Positions 34,484 to 43,401 of a DNA stretch of 64,000 nt are shown piece by piece (the stretch's first letter is position 1; each line of letters begins with the position of its first letter). The DNA lies in assembly GCF_016592555.1 (NCBI RefSeq), contig NZ_AP014546.1, positions 2,180,501 through 2,244,500 of the forward strand. Reading direction: 5' to 3'. The position numbers and the translations under genes are program-made. The notes beneath the pieces are model-generated. The model made no database searches. It was given only the letters and a program-made list of their open reading frames with translations, and was not told the origin of the DNA. The DNA is from Neptunomonas japonica JAMM 1380. GTDB lineage: Bacteria > Pseudomonadota > Gammaproteobacteria > Pseudomonadales > Balneatricaceae.

Positions 34484-35491
34484 GTGCCTAGTGAGAAAAA
34501 TGACCCCATGCAGGCGCTACTTGAACAGCAGCAAGCTCTTTTCAAACAGTGGATTGATGAGCAAACAACACGTGCGACTTGTGAAAACACTCCCCCTCCT
34601 CATGAGTCACGGGATTTAGCGCGTATCTCAGCAATCCTTGCAACACAAACGACTGAGTTTCTACGCTTTGGTAAAACAATACTTGAGCATACCGATAAAA
34701 ACGCCTCAAACAGCAGTACATTGAAAGCCACTATTGAAGGCCCACTTAAACAGTTTCGGGATTTTGTGCAACAACAAACTGGAGAAGCCTTGCTCAAGCA
34801 GTGGGAACTACCTGAAAATATTGCAGCCCTATTTAGAACCCACAGCTTTAGTGATGACCTTTTATTTGAAAACCCCTATATTAGCGGACTGAAAAGCTTA
34901 CTTAATACCCCTTCTGTCGGAACAACGCATGAGTTTCAGAAAAACACACGCGACGGGATTAAGCTTCTCCTTGAGTACCAAGACGCATTAGCAGAGTATA
35001 TTGAGCAATATAGCCAAATAAACCTGCACGCCAGCAATTCACTCATGCAAGTACTCGCACAAGGCCAAAAGCGCGTAGAAACACTTGGAGAACTCCACAA
35101 CCTTTGGGTAAATTGTTACGAAGCAGCATACTCAAAGTGCCTTTATACTCAACAATACCAGCGAAGTCATGGCAGAGTATCCAATGCACTTATGCATTTA
35201 CGTAAATATGCACAAGATATGCGTGATATTCAGTTCGAGACAGCCGGGCTAGCCACGCGTCAAGGTTTAGATACAGTCCTACAGCGCCAGCATGCTTTAC
35301 GCAAAGATATGCGCAAAATGCACAAAGCTCTCGCTGATATAAAAGAAGCGCAAAATCAAACATTAATCTCTGAGTTAAAAAGCACTGTCCAACAACTTTC
35401 TTCAGATATAAGTTACCTTAAACAAGAACTATCTGAGCTAAAATCCTCAACATTAATACCAACCCTGGCTGCTACTGATGAAAAATCTTAA
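34484..35491 (+). CDS. phaE: PHA synthase subunit PhaE
   Basis: 335 residues of PhaE, the partner of the class III PHA synthase. It is mostly helical, with the family region around ELHNLWVNCYEAAYS and a coiled-coil tail ending in LKQELSELKSS. A GAGG at 34473-34476 supports the GTG start at 34484. The last bases overlap the phaC start by 14, so the two are translationally coupled. It stimulates PhaC to polymerise (R)-3-hydroxyacyl-CoA. Confidence 0.9.
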   Translation: MPSEKNDPMQALLEQQQALFKQWIDEQTTRATCENTPPPHESRDLARISAILATQTTEFLRFGKTILEHTDKNASNSSTLKATIEGPLKQFRDFVQQQTGEALLKQWELPENIAALFRTHSFSDDLLFENPYISGLKSLLNTPSVGTTHEFQKNTRDGIKLLLEYQDALAEYIEQYSQINLHASNSLMQVLAQGQKRVETLGELHNLWVNCYEAAYSKCLYTQQYQRSHGRVSNALMHLRKYAQDMRDIQFETAGLATRQGLDTVLQRQHALRKDMRKMHKALADIKEAQNQTLISELKSTVQQLSSDISYLKQELSELKSSTLIPTLAATDEKS

Positions 35492-36548
35492 ACTTGATCC
35501 AAACAAGATCCAAGATGAGCTCATCGACTTAGAACAGAAATTACAAAGTAGCTATGAGACGTTAAAAGGGATATCACACATTGATGTTGCACAATCGCAA
35601 GCAGTAGAAATTTTTGCTCAGGATAAACTAAAACTTTTATATTTTTCAGGCAATAAGGCTGTAGAAACGCGTTGTAAAACACCATTATTGATCACATACG
35701 CGCTCGTGAATCGTTGGTATATGATTGACCTAGAACCTAAGAAATCATTATTGAAAACGCTCAATAGTCTTGGGCTAGATGTTTACGTCATTGATTGGGG
35801 TTACCCTGACCCTGCTGACCGCTTTAACGACCTTGATGATTATATTAACGAGTATATTAATAATTGCGTTGATCAAGTTTGCCTACATGCACAAGTGAAA
35901 AAAACCAACCTACTAGGCATCTGCCAGGGGGGGACTTTAAGCCTATGCTACACTGCCATTTATGGTGATAAAATCAGTAACCTCATCACCATGGTCACTC
36001 CAGTCGATTTTCAAACAGAAACAAATCTACTTAGCTTATTGGCACGCTCGGTTGATGTAGACCTCGCCGTTTCCACTTACGGTAATATCCCTGGCGAGAT
36101 GCTCAATGATTCATATAATTCATTAATGCCAATGCGCTTAGGTATTCAAAAAAATCTAGGCATGCCTAATCACCTTCATGATGCGGAAAGCGCACTCAGC
36201 TTTCTACGCATGGAAAAGTGGATCTACGATAGCCCAGATCAAGCAGGGGAAGCATTTCGAGAGTTTATTAAGTGGTTTTTCCAAGAGAACCGTCTAATAA
36301 AAAACCAACTGAGTATTGGAGAATATCCCGTCAGGTTAGCTAACATTACCCAGCCTGTACTCAATATTTTCGGCTCTTACGATCATTTAGTACCGCCAGA
36401 TGCGTCTATTGCACTAAGACAATATATTGGAAGCAAGGACTATCAAGAAGAGGAAGTAAAAGCGGGACATATAGGCGTGTTCGTTAGCGGGAAATCACAA
36501 GCCATAGTACCCAAGAAAATTAATGACTGGCTTTTAGAAAGAGATTAA
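35478..36548 (+). CDS. phaC: PHA synthase PhaC, class III
   Basis: 356 residues, the size of a class III synthase. The lipase-box-like catalytic site is GICQGG with Cys149, the same position as in Allochromatium vinosum PhaC. The catalytic Asp is in NIFGSYDHLVPP and the His in AGHIGVFV. It polymerises (R)-3-hydroxybutyryl-CoA. It overlaps phaE by 14 bases and its product needs PhaE for activity. Confidence 0.95.
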   Translation: MKNLKLDPNKIQDELIDLEQKLQSSYETLKGISHIDVAQSQAVEIFAQDKLKLLYFSGNKAVETRCKTPLLITYALVNRWYMIDLEPKKSLLKTLNSLGLDVYVIDWGYPDPADRFNDLDDYINEYINNCVDQVCLHAQVKKTNLLGICQGGTLSLCYTAIYGDKISNLITMVTPVDFQTETNLLSLLARSVDVDLAVSTYGNIPGEMLNDSYNSLMPMRLGIQKNLGMPNHLHDAESALSFLRMEKWIYDSPDQAGEAFREFIKWFFQENRLIKNQLSIGEYPVRLANITQPVLNIFGSYDHLVPPDASIALRQYIGSKDYQEEEVKAGHIGVFVSGKSQAIVPKKINDWLLERD

Positions 36549-36592: not shown

Positions 36593-37087
36593 TTACTTAT
36601 CAGAAGGCTTTTCTGAATCTTTCATACTACTTTCTGCTTCAGATGGTGCAACGCCACCTGGACCCTCGCCCGGTTTAAACATGTTCCATACTGCCATATT
36701 ACGATCAGCAATGCTGTTCATCATAGTGAGAGGGTTTGCGACTCCCATCATGGTTTGCATCTGCTCTTTAATACGGTCTTGATGCTCAAGAAATGACGCG
36801 ATACTTTGCTCTAAATACTGGCTCATCATTCCTTGCATGCTATCGCCATAAAAACGAATAAGCTGCTGTAGCACTTGATTTGTCAGCAGCGTTCCATGCC
36901 CGTCCCCTTCTTGCTCACTAATGATTTGAAGAAGAATATTTCGAGTCAGGTCATTGCCTGTTTTCGAATCGAGTACTTGAAATGCTTCGCTGCTTAAAAC
37001 CAGTTCTTTGACATCTTCAAGTGTGACATAGCAGCTACGTGAAGTATCATAAAGGCGTCGATTGGTATATTTTCGAAGAATTCGCAA
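36593..37087 (-). CDS. phaR: PHA synthesis repressor PhaR
   Basis: 164 residues. The N-terminal PHB/PHA accumulation regulator domain is RILRKYTNRRLYDTSRSCYVTLEDVKELV, and a second PhaR domain with a central coiled coil follows (MMSQYLEQSIASFLEHQ). PhaR binds PHA granules and represses phasin and its own gene. It converges on phaC. Confidence 0.92.
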   Translation of the reverse strand: MRILRKYTNRRLYDTSRSCYVTLEDVKELVLSSEAFQVLDSKTGNDLTRNILLQIISEQEGDGHGTLLTNQVLQQLIRFYGDSMQGMMSQYLEQSIASFLEHQDRIKEQMQTMMGVANPLTMMNSIADRNMAVWNMFKPGEGPGGVAPSEAESSMKDSEKPSDK

Positions 37088-37134
37088 CGTGTTCTCTCTC
37101 TCTTTTCTACAGCATCTCTAATGATGAGTAGTGA

Positions 37135-37389
37135 TTAGCTTTTATTATTGTCGGATTTTCCATAACCCTGCATCATATTAAATATCAGCTTCTGCAGTGA
37201 TTCCATCGAGCCAACACTATTAGTAATGTAAGGTTTGAGCAGTGTTAATGGATCGTAACCTTCTGCCCCGGCATCCATTTGCTCTCTGACTTTTGCGATC
37301 ATTTCATCCTGAAGTGACCCAACATCCGGAAGCCCCATAACTTGACGCAACTCATTCGGCGTCATCTCAATATCTACTTTAAAATTCAT
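37135..37389 (-). CDS. DUF6489 family small protein
   Basis: This acidic protein of about 84 residues starts at the ATG at 37389, where AGGG lies just upstream. The longer frame to 37530 has only an unconserved leader that overlaps the MFS gene. It contains ELRQVMGLPDVGSLQDEM, a segment I associate with the DUF6489 family; its position next to phaR suggests a granule-linked role (inference). Confidence 0.75.
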   Translation of the reverse strand: MNFKVDIEMTPNELRQVMGLPDVGSLQDEMIAKVREQMDAGAEGYDPLTLLKPYITNSVGSMESLQKLIFNMMQGYGKSDNNKS

Positions 37390-37471
37390 GTCATAACCCT
37401 TTGTTATGCCGCAGAATAAAAGACTCTTATTCACTATATAGCGATACTTACCGCAGTGCAAAATATTAGCG

Positions 37472-38647
37472 TCAATTTTGCTGCACTTTTCCCGGATGAA
37501 CCCATACATATGCCAACACGATAGCCACAAGAGAAACGGCAGCGGCCATACTAAAAGTCACCGCTGAACCATAACTACCCCAGAGCAAACCTGCAGCCAC
37601 AGCTCCTGCGGTCCCTCCTACACCAAAACCAACACTAGAAAATAATGCCTGCCCACGCCCCTGCATAGCGTCGGGAAAGTAGTGATGCACTAGCGAAATA
37701 CCAACTGCATGTAAGCTACCAAATGTTGCAGCATGGAGCAGCTGCGCAACAATAACCATAAAAATATTTTCTGGCCAAAAAGCCAATAATACCCATCTCA
37801 GCACACATAACATTAAGCTAACAAGCATGATAAGACGCAGCCCTAGGTGAATAATAAGGGTATGCATAACAACGAAGACGAGTATCTCTGCAACCACACC
37901 TAAAGACCACAATATGCCAATTTCAGTGCGCGTATACTCTAGCTTTTGCATCATCAAACTAAAGAAAGTGTAGTAAGGCCCGTGTGAAAATTGAATGAGC
38001 AATGTGATAATAAAAAAAGCAATGATGTGCGGTTTAAAAACCACATCGAGAAAGCTTGGGCCTTCTAACAGAGTGCTACCTTCAGGTTTCTTAGCCTCTG
38101 GAATCAATAGTGAATTCAGCCATATAAACATCATTAAAATAAGCAGTATGAAAGGAATCCAGCTTACCGACACCTTATCTAAGATATAACCCACTAATAA
38201 AACCGTGATAATAAAGCCTATTGAGCCCCATAAACGTACCCGGCTATACTTGGATTGTGCGGCACCAAGGTGGTTGAGTGTTACCACTTCAAATTGAGGC
38301 AATACAGCATTCCAAAAAAAACTATATCCCAGCATAACAAGCGCAACGCCAATAGCTGTGTCTTGCCAAAACATAGCTATAAAAACCACCCAAGTTAGCA
38401 ACGCTCCTACGCGTATAATTCGCAATCTCTGCCCGGTTTTATCCGCTATCCATCCCCATAAAGAGGGTGCAAAAATACGCGACACGTGCAGTGTTGCCAT
38501 CAATAAACCTATTGTCTTAGCATCAAAATCTAACGATTTAAGATATAAAGACCAATAGGGAATCATGGCTCCTAAAAGGGCAAAATAGAAAAAATAAAAA
38601 CCTGAGAGTCGTATATATGGCAAAGTGCTAACCGGGGAAAGAATCAA
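37472..38647 (-). CDS. MFS transporter, HcaT-like
   Basis: 391 residues with 12 predicted membrane helices, a MFS_1-like/HcaT-type permease: MIPYWSLYLKSLDFDAKTIGLLMA at the N-terminus, the loop motif WGWIADKTGQRLRIIRVG, and TVLLVGYILDK. The start codon is TTG (38647), overlapping the stop of the GGDEF-EAL gene by 4 bases (TTGA), so it is the third gene of that operon. HcaT-like transporters take up aromatic acids or other substrates; here the substrate may relate to the polyamine-type binding protein upstream, but this is inference. Confidence 0.85.
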   Translation of the reverse strand: MILSPVSTLPYIRLSGFYFFYFALLGAMIPYWSLYLKSLDFDAKTIGLLMATLHVSRIFAPSLWGWIADKTGQRLRIIRVGALLTWVVFIAMFWQDTAIGVALVMLGYSFFWNAVLPQFEVVTLNHLGAAQSKYSRVRLWGSIGFIITVLLVGYILDKVSVSWIPFILLILMMFIWLNSLLIPEAKKPEGSTLLEGPSFLDVVFKPHIIAFFIITLLIQFSHGPYYTFFSLMMQKLEYTRTEIGILWSLGVVAEILVFVVMHTLIIHLGLRLIMLVSLMLCVLRWVLLAFWPENIFMVIVAQLLHAATFGSLHAVGISLVHHYFPDAMQGRGQALFSSVGFGVGGTAGAVAAGLLWGSYGSAVTFSMAAAVSLVAIVLAYVWVHPGKVQQN

Positions 38648-40977
38648 TATTGAGATAAGATTTTATTAAGGGACATTGGCTCAGCATAATACACCCCCTG
38701 TAAACGCCGGCAACCAGCCTGCTTAAGAACTGTTGCTTGCTCATCACTCTCAACACCCTTAGCTGTTACTTCAAAGCCTTGAGCTTTACAAAACTCGATA
38801 AGAGAAAGAGCTTTATCCCTACGCGCTTGGATAAACAAGCTTGCAACAAAAGTTTTATCCAACTTGACGACGTCAACTGGATATTCAATTAACTGCATAA
38901 TTGACGTATATCCAGCACCAAAGTCTACTAGGGCAAGATTAAAACCAAGGTCTTTAAGCAAAAACAATAAGCCTATGTCATCTTTCATTTTATCCATATC
39001 AAATATTTCAGTAATTTCTATTTCAAAATACTGTGGGTTAATCTGATACTTCACTATCAACTTGGATATTGTTGCTATAAAAGATTTAGAAACCAATTGA
39101 ACAGCAGAAACTTTAAAGCTAATTCGCAATGCCCCCCCAAAGTGCTTAATAATGGCTTTGGAGTCTCGAAAAACACGCTCAATCACCCAGGCATCAATTT
39201 TCTCATATTGACTACTCCCCTCTGCAATAGATAAAAACTCAGAAGGCAACACTGCACCCAATACAGGAGACTGCCAGCGAATTAGTGCTTCAACGCTGCA
39301 GATAGATTCAAACATATCGACATTAAAAGCGGGTATATATACAAGCTCTAACTCAGCCGTATCAAGGTGCTTCAGTTCGAGCTCAACAGCATATTTTCGG
39401 CGGGATTTTGCAGCTAATTCTTCAGAGTAAAAAGAGATACGATTTTTACCCGCTTTCTTTGCTTCATACATTGCAGCATCAGCATTATTTACTAGGTCTT
39501 CTTTGGTTAAAGCATCATCTGGAAAAACAGCTACGCCAATACTCAACGAAACAGGGAACGTACCTTCATCACACTCAAGACCATTATGGCAGATAGCGAG
39601 TATCCTATCTGCTAAACCACTCGCATGAAGCTCGTCACTCAAACCACAAATAACCACTGCAAACTCATCGCCCGCCAGCCTAGCTGAAGATGCATTGTCA
39701 ATATCATAACGAGGAATAATTTGATCCGTTGCTCTAACGACTAAACTTAATCGCTCTGCAAATACTTTAAGCAGCAAATCTCCCATGGTATGCCCATAGG
39801 TATCGTTCACAAACTTAAAGTTATCAATATCTATATAAAAGAGCGCTGTTTTTGTACCACTAAATTCAGACCTTTTTATCATTTTTTCAACGGCATTATG
39901 AAACATACGCCGATTATATAACTTGGTAAGTGTGTCTTTTTCTGCCAATTCTTTAGTTAAACGATAAGACTGGTCAAGAGAGTCATACAAGTGACTAAAT
40001 GTTCGGCTTAGCCCGCCTATCTCATCTTGTGAAACAGAAGCGACAAAACCACTTCCATCTTCAACATTCACACTCGATAGCTCTTTTTCAAGTTGATGGA
40101 TAGGACCTGTAACGTAACGCTGAATCAGGTAGATAAGCGAAAAATAACTCAAAACAGCTATCAAAACAAAGCTAATAAAAAGGCTTAGTTTAAGCTTGTT
40201 AAACTTTTGCGCTAATAACGGCTCAGATACGCCTAGCGATAATGAGCCAAAAGCCACCGGGGCATGCACAACTAAAGACTCTTCAGCATGATGGGCACCA
40301 ACATGCCCCTGCCCAAACCACTGATAAACAAGGCCTTTAGAAATTTGCTCCTTGATTTTTTTATCAAACAAGGTCGGACTCACCTCTACAACAATAGCGA
40401 TAGATGAGCTCGTAGAAAAATTGATAGGTGCCTTGAAAGTATTTTGATCAATTATTCGAACAAATAACATATGAGACTCGCCTAAAGGACCATGCATATC
40501 GGCCCATTCTGCTTGCTTTGCTTCAAAAGCATCTCTAACCATTTCTACTTGATAACGGCTAATCTCAGAAAAAGGATCTAGGCTGTTTTCGTAATAGTAT
40601 TCAACTTTTCCTTGGGGCCTGATAAGCGCCACTGAAAAGTAGTCGGATGAAAGCGTATTAAGCTCTTTGATAGAGTTTTCTAACCCCTTTTCAAGAGCCA
40701 GCGCTTTAAACAACTTGTCTTGACTAGAAAAATAGTTCTGCAGACTACTATTATATAATAGTGAATCAATAAAACTTTCAGCCACGTTTGTATACTTTTC
40801 AAACAGTGCCGTAAGCTCAGTGACTTGCAGATCGAGCGTGCGCTCCTCTAAATCAATAATCGATTGTTTTTGAGTGTTATATACACCGACAACAGCAACC
40901 AAGTAACCGATAATTAATACGGGCAAAATCAATAAACTTATACGTTTATTGAGCGTCACGATACTTCTTCGCTGCAT
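38644..40977 (-). CDS. MbaA-like GGDEF-EAL membrane protein
   Basis: 777 residues: TM1 (about 12-32), periplasmic sensor loop (33-262), TM2 (about 263-285), HAMP-like (290-340), GGDEF (about 345-515) with the active-site LAGDEF (435-439), and EAL (about 535-777) with EAL at 563-565. The EAL metal-site residues are changed: the Asn of the usual NxSa is Lys622 (FKVSA), the double Asp is VD at 684-685, and the Glu of xEGVE is Lys740 (AKGVE). Phosphodiesterase activity is therefore doubtful. Architecture, length and upstream PotD-like gene match Vibrio MbaA. The start overlaps the upstream gene; a GTG at 40959 is an alternative. Confidence 0.88.
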   Translation of the reverse strand: MQRRSIVTLNKRISLLILPVLIIGYLVAVVGVYNTQKQSIIDLEERTLDLQVTELTALFEKYTNVAESFIDSLLYNSSLQNYFSSQDKLFKALALEKGLENSIKELNTLSSDYFSVALIRPQGKVEYYYENSLDPFSEISRYQVEMVRDAFEAKQAEWADMHGPLGESHMLFVRIIDQNTFKAPINFSTSSSIAIVVEVSPTLFDKKIKEQISKGLVYQWFGQGHVGAHHAEESLVVHAPVAFGSLSLGVSEPLLAQKFNKLKLSLFISFVLIAVLSYFSLIYLIQRYVTGPIHQLEKELSSVNVEDGSGFVASVSQDEIGGLSRTFSHLYDSLDQSYRLTKELAEKDTLTKLYNRRMFHNAVEKMIKRSEFSGTKTALFYIDIDNFKFVNDTYGHTMGDLLLKVFAERLSLVVRATDQIIPRYDIDNASSARLAGDEFAVVICGLSDELHASGLADRILAICHNGLECDEGTFPVSLSIGVAVFPDDALTKEDLVNNADAAMYEAKKAGKNRISFYSEELAAKSRRKYAVELELKHLDTAELELVYIPAFNVDMFESICSVEALIRWQSPVLGAVLPSEFLSIAEGSSQYEKIDAWVIERVFRDSKAIIKHFGGALRISFKVSAVQLVSKSFIATISKLIVKYQINPQYFEIEITEIFDMDKMKDDIGLLFLLKDLGFNLALVDFGAGYTSIMQLIEYPVDVVKLDKTFVASLFIQARRDKALSLIEFCKAQGFEVTAKGVESDEQATVLKQAGCRRLQGVYYAEPMSLNKILSQY

Positions 40978-41980
40978 TAATAATTCTATGGCGCAGAGTC
41001 ATATTCGCATCAGAAATAATGCGGTAGCTATGACTATTATCGATAGCTTCTGTTGTAGGGTAGATATTAGTATCGCTCAAAACATCTTCTGGTAATTGTT
41101 TCAATGCGCGCTTATTAGGAGTGGCAAGACCTAGCCATTCACTATTCAAAGCAGCGTTCGACGGCTGATTAATAAACTCAACAAATTCAAGGGCTAACTC
41201 TTTCTTTGGAGACCACTTCATTATAGAAAAGCAGTCCATCCAAATCGCTGTACCCTCTTCAGGGTAAACAAACGCCCACGCTTCGCTCTGGCTCATTTCA
41301 TTTAGTGAAAACTGATCTCCAGAATACCCAAGAGCCATATACATTTGCCCTTCTCTTTGCTTTGCATATGTCAGAGAGTACCCATAGCCTAACAACGAAG
41401 GCGCTTGGTTTTTCAAATGTATAAATGCTTCTTGAAGTTCATTTTTATCTTCAGTATTAATACTCTTCCCGTCAAGTAGCAGTGGAGCGACGAGAGTGTC
41501 TATAGCATCCTCAACCATCACCACGTGCCCTTGATACTCTTGCTTGGGATAAAGTAAGTGTCGCCATGAAGTCGGCGCAGGCACCACTTTTTCTTTATTG
41601 TAAATGATACCTAATGAGCCCCATAAATAAGGCAGCCCAAAATTCCCACAACTTTCTTTCCAATGAGGGTCGGTATCTATGAGAGACGGCACATTGCCAG
41701 GAGACAAAGCTAATAGCTTATTGTTCTTACCGAATAACTGCGCACTAATACTATCGAAAACAGCTAAATCAAAACCCTTTCCATTACCTGAACCTAGAAC
41801 TTCATCACGGTCCTCATCACTATCATAAAAAACTAAGTTAACTTTATGTCCTGTCTTTTCTTCCCACTTATCAATCAATTCCTGCGAAATATAATCTTCC
41901 CAAATATAGACTTTAAGCTCATCAGAAAAAACAACAGAAGACCAAAAACACAATATGAATAGCGATAGAGTTTTTTTCAT
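40946..41980 (-). CDS. NspS/PotD-like polyamine-binding protein
   Basis: 344 residues: signal peptide (MKKTLSLFILCFWSSVVFS), then a spermidine/putrescine-binding protein of the PotD type, with the early YIWEDYISQELIDKWEEKTGHKV pattern, PYLWGSLGIIYN and the late RIINAAKKYRDA tail. No polyamine ABC permease or ATPase is next to it; instead it overlaps a GGDEF-EAL gene. This is the arrangement of Vibrio nspS-mbaA, in which NspS binds norspermidine or spermidine and signals through MbaA. The ligand here is not proven. Confidence 0.9.
   Translation of the reverse strand: MKKTLSLFILCFWSSVVFSDELKVYIWEDYISQELIDKWEEKTGHKVNLVFYDSDEDRDEVLGSGNGKGFDLAVFDSISAQLFGKNNKLLALSPGNVPSLIDTDPHWKESCGNFGLPYLWGSLGIIYNKEKVVPAPTSWRHLLYPKQEYQGHVVMVEDAIDTLVAPLLLDGKSINTEDKNELQEAFIHLKNQAPSLLGYGYSLTYAKQREGQMYMALGYSGDQFSLNEMSQSEAWAFVYPEEGTAIWMDCFSIMKWSPKKELALEFVEFINQPSNAALNSEWLGLATPNKRALKQLPEDVLSDTNIYPTTEAIDNSHSYRIISDANMTLRHRIINAAKKYRDAQ

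Positions 41981-42120: not shown

Positions 42121-43401
<1,281 letters not shown>

Follow-up and report, generated by a model that had tools for sequence, protein, structure and literature searches.

Known receptors of the NspS-MbaA type

The NspS-MbaA polyamine receptor of Vibrio cholerae is encoded by an orphan PotD-like gene, which overlaps the gene of a membrane protein built of a transmembrane segment, a sensor, a second transmembrane segment, a GGDEF domain, and an EAL domain (PMC8079147, PMC8967002). MbaA is described as bifunctional, with the metal ligands of its EAL domain intact, and the polyamine response reportedly requires both of its arms (PMC8079147). According to the same source, c-di-GMP still rises with norspermidine and is hardly lowered with spermidine in the EVL mutant of MbaA, in which the GGDEF arm works and the phosphodiesterase arm does not, and the cytoplasmic part of the protein displays only phosphodiesterase activity in vitro. 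The four magnesium ligands named in PMC9993111, N233 and D295 among them, are conserved in MbaA of both V. cholerae and Sinorhizobium meliloti. The same work places NspS-MbaA in 222 of the 16,076 proteobacterial genomes that it surveyed, Neptunomonas and Marinomonas among them, so its occurrence outside Vibrio, in Sinorhizobium as well as in the genera named by the survey, is already published knowledge.

The locus considered here lies in a window of 64,000 nucleotides (the whole stretch of DNA that was analysed) from Neptunomonas japonica JAMM 1380, whose genome is a single 4.1-Mb contig. It encodes a receptor of the known type with a real, clade-wide change in its output half, next to a bystander transporter. 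The orphan PotD-like gene, its overlap with the second gene, and the domain order resemble those of V. cholerae, most of the polyamine contact positions are shared, and the first residue of the GGDEF motif is substituted in both. Unlike the bifunctional V. cholerae MbaA, the window protein has K, V, and K at three metal-ligand positions. The S. meliloti pair, the closest experimentally studied relative among the matches listed, has the same domain order and about 41% identity in the binding protein; its MbaA differs in combining an SGDEF motif with intact EAL metal ligands (PMC9993111). What is new is the natural loss of EAL metal ligands within an NspS-MbaA clade, the receptor type itself being known.

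Organization of the locus

The three open reading frames, their domains, and the flanking genes are as follows.

40946..41980, minus strand: nspS-like gene, 344 aa, putative periplasmic PotD-type polyamine binding protein (SBP_bac_8)
38644..40977, minus strand: mbaA-like gene, 777 aa as listed, TM - periplasmic sensor - TM - GGDEF - EAL
GTG at 40959, minus strand: likely start of the mbaA-like gene, 771 aa, 14-base overlap with nspS
40192..40878, minus strand: periplasmic sensor domain, double-Cache-like, residues 34-262 of the mbaA-like protein
39433..39945, minus strand: GGDEF domain, residues 345-515 of the mbaA-like protein
39661-39675, minus strand: AGDEF motif within the GGDEF domain
38677..39360, minus strand: EAL domain, predicted to be catalytically dead, residues 540-767 of the mbaA-like protein
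39112..39114, minus strand: K622, position of RocR N233, metal ligand lost
38926..38928, minus strand: V684, position of RocR D295, metal ligand lost
38758..38760, minus strand: K740, position of RocR E352, metal ligand lost
37472..38623 (likely; listed open reading frame 37472-38647), minus strand: MFS_1_like transporter gene, judged a neighbour outside the receptor
42121-43395: serS, flank on the nspS side of the three open reading frames
37135-37398: DUF6489 gene, flank on the MFS side of the three open reading frames

The Pfam scores are 100.8 bits for SBP_bac_8, 125.4 for GGDEF, 158.4 for EAL, and 369.7 for MFS_1_like. As listed, the nspS and mbaA frames overlap by 32 bases, the number given in an earlier note on this DNA, but it rests on the first ATG of mbaA. 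An overlap of 14 bases is likely instead, because it occurs in six of the ten relatives with the linked pair (G007, G005, G011, G041, G026, and G020) and the window offers a GTG at 40959; in the other four relatives, 2 to 16 bases separate the two genes. For comparison, the Vibrio overlap is published as 16 bases and was counted here as 17.

The second boundary has a similar history. The listed MFS frame opens with TTGA at the mbaA stop, which gives the 4-base overlap described in the earlier note; this overlap requires a TTG start which is not shared by the relatives, and translational coupling through it was rejected as a probable start-codon artefact. The MFS start is likely, though not proven, to be the TTG at 38623, leaving a 20-base gap to mbaA and no overlap, because this codon is common to the genus relatives (G007, G005, G001, G004, and G006) and in-frame stops lie just 5′ of it in G005 and G001. 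More distant relatives differ at this site, and some have upstream ATG codons. The DNA alignment with G001, a relative devoid of the module, picks up again at window position 38635. The range of 38644-41980 previously assigned to a three-gene module does not contain the MFS gene.

Binding protein and its ligand

The AlphaFold2 model of the NspS-like protein has a pLDDT of 91.4, and its best matches in the PDB are PotD, PotF variants, VcPotD1, and SpuE. Eight positions of V. cholerae NspS are said to contact norspermidine (PMC9993111). Mapped by alignment through Vibrio relatives rather than V. cholerae NspS itself, six of them are identical in the window protein (W27, D76, Y219, D222, W247, and D249), and the other two are E56 in place of D and L119 in place of F. 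The pocket is of the polyamine type, and a polyamine is the probable ligand, yet the pocket does not fix which one binds. The host genome contains a gene of the spermidine synthase family, whereas its best score with the nspC model, 37.6 bits, is far below the cut-off of 409; norspermidine as the host's own product by way of nspC was rejected on these grounds.

Distribution of the gene pair

The pair is a homologue of the published NspS-MbaA receptor. The binding protein was searched in 57 genomes, the host and 56 relatives, and matches with E <1e-47 were obtained in ten relatives. In all ten, a GGDEF-EAL gene adjoins, so the pairing is not a matter of chance; this linkage in homologues was one of the points on which the earlier proposal had been made to depend. 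Weaker matches score as PotD/PotF-like, and the three that were opened (L047, L048, and L049) have no adjoining GGDEF-EAL gene. A sensor-domain search of 390 genomes of the order recovered the domain in 16, the host included, and the binding protein gene stands beside the sensor gene in 11 of 11 newly fetched loci. Neighbours were also scanned for ABC ATPase and permease genes adjoining nspS, and none was found, which agrees with the earlier description and sets the locus apart from a PotABCD-type importer. The three potA genes above cut-off in the host genome each lie beside a different binding protein gene.

A scan of named genomes extended this picture. At least 80 binding protein loci exist, 80 being kept among the matches listed. 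In 34 of these (L120-L153), the next gene encodes GGDEF-EAL in 29 cases and GGDEF without EAL in one (L135); it is interrupted in two (L126 and L134) and encodes a different protein in two (L146 and L153). The rule used to set the start of an adjacent gene gave no neighbour match in seven of the 34, and a closer look revealed GGDEF-EAL frames in L121, L129, L136, and L137, an interruption in L126, and another protein in L146 and L153. For the 46 loci L154-L199, on the Firmicutes side by their titles, no adjacent match was obtained by this same rule, which had overlooked those four frames. Among the homologues of the binding protein is one from Sinorhizobium that carries the name 'polyamine sensor NspS', and the MbaA tree contains window, Sinorhizobium, Stutzerimonas, and Vibrio rows, with V. 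cholerae itself outside the fetched loci. Linkage, named homologues, tree, and pocket all bear out the earlier claim of an NspS-MbaA-type pair outside Vibrio.

Several loci depart from the common arrangement. The mbaA frame is interrupted in L126 (Sinorhizobium fredii), and both frames are interrupted in L134 (Rhizobium sp.). In L146 (9130-11937) and L153 (9038-11734), the NspS/PotD-like gene is followed by a gene for a large membrane protein other than GGDEF-EAL, perhaps a histidine kinase. One genome of the window's genus (G004, locus L045) carries a more distant NspS-MbaA-like pair elsewhere, with a canonical GGDEF motif and an intact EAL domain.

Sensor and GGDEF domains

The sensor domain can be assigned to a fold class. 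Pfam recognized dCache_1 in three of 31 sensor domains, all weakly, and Foldseek also gave fold class only, with TM scores of 0.41-0.49 for LuxP-LuxQ and equal or better ones for other dCache sensors. Structural modelling used 15 chosen rows in one set (A1) and 31 of 37 sensor pieces in another (A2). The likeness to LuxP-LuxQ, as a fold match, lies in the possible docking of a binding protein onto a periplasmic sensor of the double-PAS/Cache type; LuxQ is, in contrast, a histidine kinase. Pfam gave no HAMP match between the second transmembrane segment and the GGDEF domain of the window protein at an E-value threshold of 0.001, and PF00672 is present in some relatives.

In the GGDEF domain, the positions corresponding to PleD D327, N335, D344, G369, D370, and E371 are kept and G368 is replaced by A, giving AGDEF (residue roles according to PMC7911125). 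An RxxD motif is absent from the protein as read by eye. Diguanylate cyclase activity of the AGDEF domain is assumed by analogy.

Loss of EAL metal ligands in one clade

The metal ligands of RocR are E175, N233, E265, D295, D296, and E352 (PMC7911125). In the window protein, three of the six are lost (N622K, D684V, and E740K), and the residues at E175, E265, and D296 are kept. With K, V, and K at three of its six metal-ligand positions, the domain is predicted to have lost c-di-GMP hydrolysis; phosphodiesterase activity is probably absent. The substrate-side residues R567, K of VKLDK, and Q of RRLQG remain.

This change was followed through a table of 64 MbaA-like rows, of which 11 come from the G-series genomes, 20 from the P series, and 33 from the 34 loci L120-L153, since L134 gave no frame. 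Seven rows have no MbaA-type EAL domain (P0075, P0076, P0082, L135, L126, L146, and L153), and its loss is unsure in P0075 and P0082 because, by eye, the tail of the former looks frame-shifted and the latter may be incomplete. Among the 57 rows with an EAL domain, the triple K/V/K change occurs in nine (window, G007, and P0066-P0072), while the other 48 keep N, D, and E. The nine rows represent eight distinct proteins, as P0069 is identical to the protein of G007, a member of the window's genus. The residues of the GGDEF domain are retained in all nine.

A tree of 60 rows was computed from sensor and GGDEF columns, with the EAL columns excluded and with L126, L146, L153, and P0069 omitted. The eight distinct K/V/K members form one clade in it (support 100/99.7), nested among rows with intact ligands. 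Closest to it among the intact rows are P0073, P0074, and G005, of which G005 belongs to the window's genus. P0074 carries D instead of E at the position of E265, and G005 keeps all six ligands, with Q replaced by E and D by N at two other listed places. Every listed position is intact in G160 (L219), as are the ligands in all 11 extra loci of the order.

For two clade members DNA is available, and between them the constraint on the EAL domain is close to that on the adjoining domains. The dN/dS values for the window and G007 are 0.071 for EAL, 0.064 for the sensor, and 0.056 for GGDEF, rough estimates from a single genome pair with saturated dS (1.8-2.2); these similar values indicate that the EAL domain is not drifting freely. 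Relative to the sensor, by protein identity, EAL change gives ratios of 0.60-1.11 in ten clade pairs and 0.36-0.96 in 15 intact pairs, a hint of mild relaxation inside the clade. P0070-P0072 drift further: all three have T at the K of VKLDK, two have S at the R of EALIRW, and G007 has EAG in place of EAL. A search of open-access text, judged from titles and the starts of abstracts, found no paper on an EAL-dead NspS-MbaA homologue.

A probable one-way receptor and its alternatives

The reading preferred here, to which we give a probability of about 0.6, is a lineage-specific derivative of NspS-MbaA which would make c-di-GMP and could not degrade it, with the dead EAL domain kept and the MFS protein uninvolved. 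In this model, the PotD-like protein would bind a polyamine in the periplasm and dock on the dCache-like sensor of its membrane partner, and docking would alter the activity of the cytoplasmic GGDEF domain. The EAL domain with K, V, and K, unlike that of published MbaA, would be unable to hydrolyse c-di-GMP, which would make the receptor one-way: it could raise c-di-GMP, or stop raising it, and could not lower it. The EAL domain would persist as a folded non-catalytic domain with a structural, dimerization, or ligand-binding role. Docking and the direction of the response are what we infer, starting from features that can be read in the sequence (gene pair, family, pocket residues, clade-wide metal-ligand loss, and MFS neighbourhood).

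The behaviour predicted for this receptor is that of the V. cholerae EVL mutant (PMC8079147), with the difference that the mutant carries a single engineered change and the window protein three natural ones, fixed throughout its clade. The earlier note had expected the same signalling logic as in V. cholerae, which is unlikely, as the phosphodiesterase half has lost metal ligands and the GGDEF residues stay. An ordinary bifunctional receptor with both arms as in Vibrio, although it would agree with the shared gene order and domains, the EAL score of 158 bits, and the three of six metal ligands retained (E175, E265, and D296), is highly improbable when K, V, and K are found throughout the clade and N, D, and E in 48 of 48 other EAL-bearing rows.

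LapD and FimX have an EAL domain which is dead yet binds c-di-GMP. The window protein resembles them in an EAL domain that does not have the full set of phosphodiesterase residues, and differs in that its GGDEF residues look active and its sensor is expected to receive the signal by way of a binding protein; its match to the NCBIfam LapD model is far below cut-off. By analogy, the dead EAL domain could still bind c-di-GMP and thereby regulate the GGDEF domain or a partner. The preserved EAL fold with R567, K of VKLDK, and Q of RRLQG in the window, and a constraint on EAL close to that of the other domains, would agree with such feedback. Since the K is lost in three of three and the R in two of three of the drifting members P0070-P0072, c-di-GMP binding is probably not kept across the clade, and we regard feedback as a rather unlikely account.

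Decay of the gene, with receptor function lost in this lineage, is less probable still. The catalytic residues are lost, the module is patchy (of the other seven genomes in the genus, five showed none at this slot), EAL change is somewhat faster inside the clade, and the drift of P0070-P0072 together with the EAG of G007 could be read as decay. The clade might also keep little output, a point that weighs against the one-way reading as well, given that phosphodiesterase activity was all that the cytoplasmic part of V. cholerae MbaA displayed in vitro (PMC8079147). Against decay, the frames are open here and in close relatives (92% identity in the binding protein and 94% in the sensor part), dN/dS is 0.06-0.07 in all three domains, and the GGDEF residues are intact.

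A natural clade with a broken metal site in a largely conserved EAL domain allows the contribution of each arm to be asked. It also raises the matter of why a dead EAL domain persists, and the ligand-intact relatives G005, at the same slot, and G160 are available for comparison. The sign of the response known from Vibrio should be transferred to annotated homologues with caution.

A broader proposal is offered tentatively, as somewhat doubtful: the NspS-MbaA family may evolve one-way receptors in both directions, with the K/V/K clade keeping the cyclase (perhaps with a metal-free c-di-GMP feedback site), EAL-less members, and a clade with AGDQF that is likely phosphodiesterase-only.

Two groups of variants were observed in this context. 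Three gammaproteobacterial MAGs (L122, L128, and L143) have AGDQF in place of GGDEF together with an intact EAL domain and form one clade in the tree; they are a possible phosphodiesterase-only mirror case. L135:9013-10551 (Aureimonas leprariae) and P0076 encode MbaA-like sensor-GGDEF proteins without EAL. In L135, this gene lies directly downstream of the nspS-like gene, and the only EAL-like stretch found is about 3.7 kb off.

The MFS gene as a neighbour

The earlier note had coupled the receptor to the transporter, in a three-gene module whose MFS protein would move the polyamine or a related ligand. The genes share a strand, with a 20-base gap or a 4-base overlap, and the order is the same in the window, G007, and G005. 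The MFS gene may now be read together with mbaA in the window, since little sequence is left there for a promoter of its own. Scans for promoters (12 sites against a shuffle mean of 13.4) and terminators (3 against 4.3) gave nothing above chance, and no operon claim is built on them; a promoter-like match of chance level is located at 38713-38686, on the upstream side of the MFS gene. A different MFS gene, fsr, stands just upstream of nspS in Sinorhizobium (PMC12095868).

The wider neighbourhood argues against this coupling. MFS homologues occur in 48 and DUF6489 in 30 of the 57 genomes, and the two adjoin, 45-205 bases apart, in 29 of 29 genomes with both, the host included. The MFS gene lies beside nspS-mbaA only in the window, G007, and G005, all of the same genus, so that the survey of neighbours recovered the three-gene order nowhere else. 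Seven genomes (G004, G011, G020, G026, G032, G036, and G041) carry both parts unlinked, on different contigs or about 350 kb apart. The 26 module-free loci among the 29 were all opened, and no GGDEF-EAL homologue was found near MFS in the stretches viewed; a PHB regulator gene follows DUF6489 in 24 of the 26. Conversely, no MFS homologue was found around the 80 named binding protein loci (34 NspS-like; among the matches listed) or in the 11 further loci of the order, two of which are on short contigs. The S. meliloti fsr gene, unlike the window MFS gene, is upstream of nspS and the two do not match, and polyamine profiles are reported as normal in fsr mutants (PMC12095868). The MFS protein scores 179.3 bits with the HcaT 3-phenylpropionate model NF008346, below the cut-off of 259, and lies above that of the general subfamily NF037955 (136.7 against 100).

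Because relatives that have no nspS-mbaA at this locus still show it in a conserved neighbourhood of its own, the MFS gene is judged an old neighbour and not a part of the receptor. Its candidacy as a third module member was rejected, a joint function being very improbable, and the transporter drops out of the receptor model. In the window, an MFS - DUF6489 - PHB regulator block (36593-38623) lies next to a PHA synthase pair (34484-36548). In G025, a weak PotD-like gene (L233:7803-8768, 26% identity) is located about 3.7 kb upstream of MFS, with no GGDEF-EAL neighbour.

History of the slot

The nspS-mbaA pair occupies the same chromosomal slot in the window, G007, and G005. Of the seven genomes that share the window's genus, the remaining five have MFS after serS and no module in between (G002 with 1.3 kb separating the two genes). 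The nucleotide identity between the window and G007 is 0.755-0.769 for the module and MFS and 0.846 for serS. As the module and MFS have diverged about equally and serS less, the pattern fits common descent of the slot followed by later losses, e.g., in G001. Transfer by recombination in the flanks is a possible alternative history. The closest relative by MFS identity is the module-free G001 (90%).
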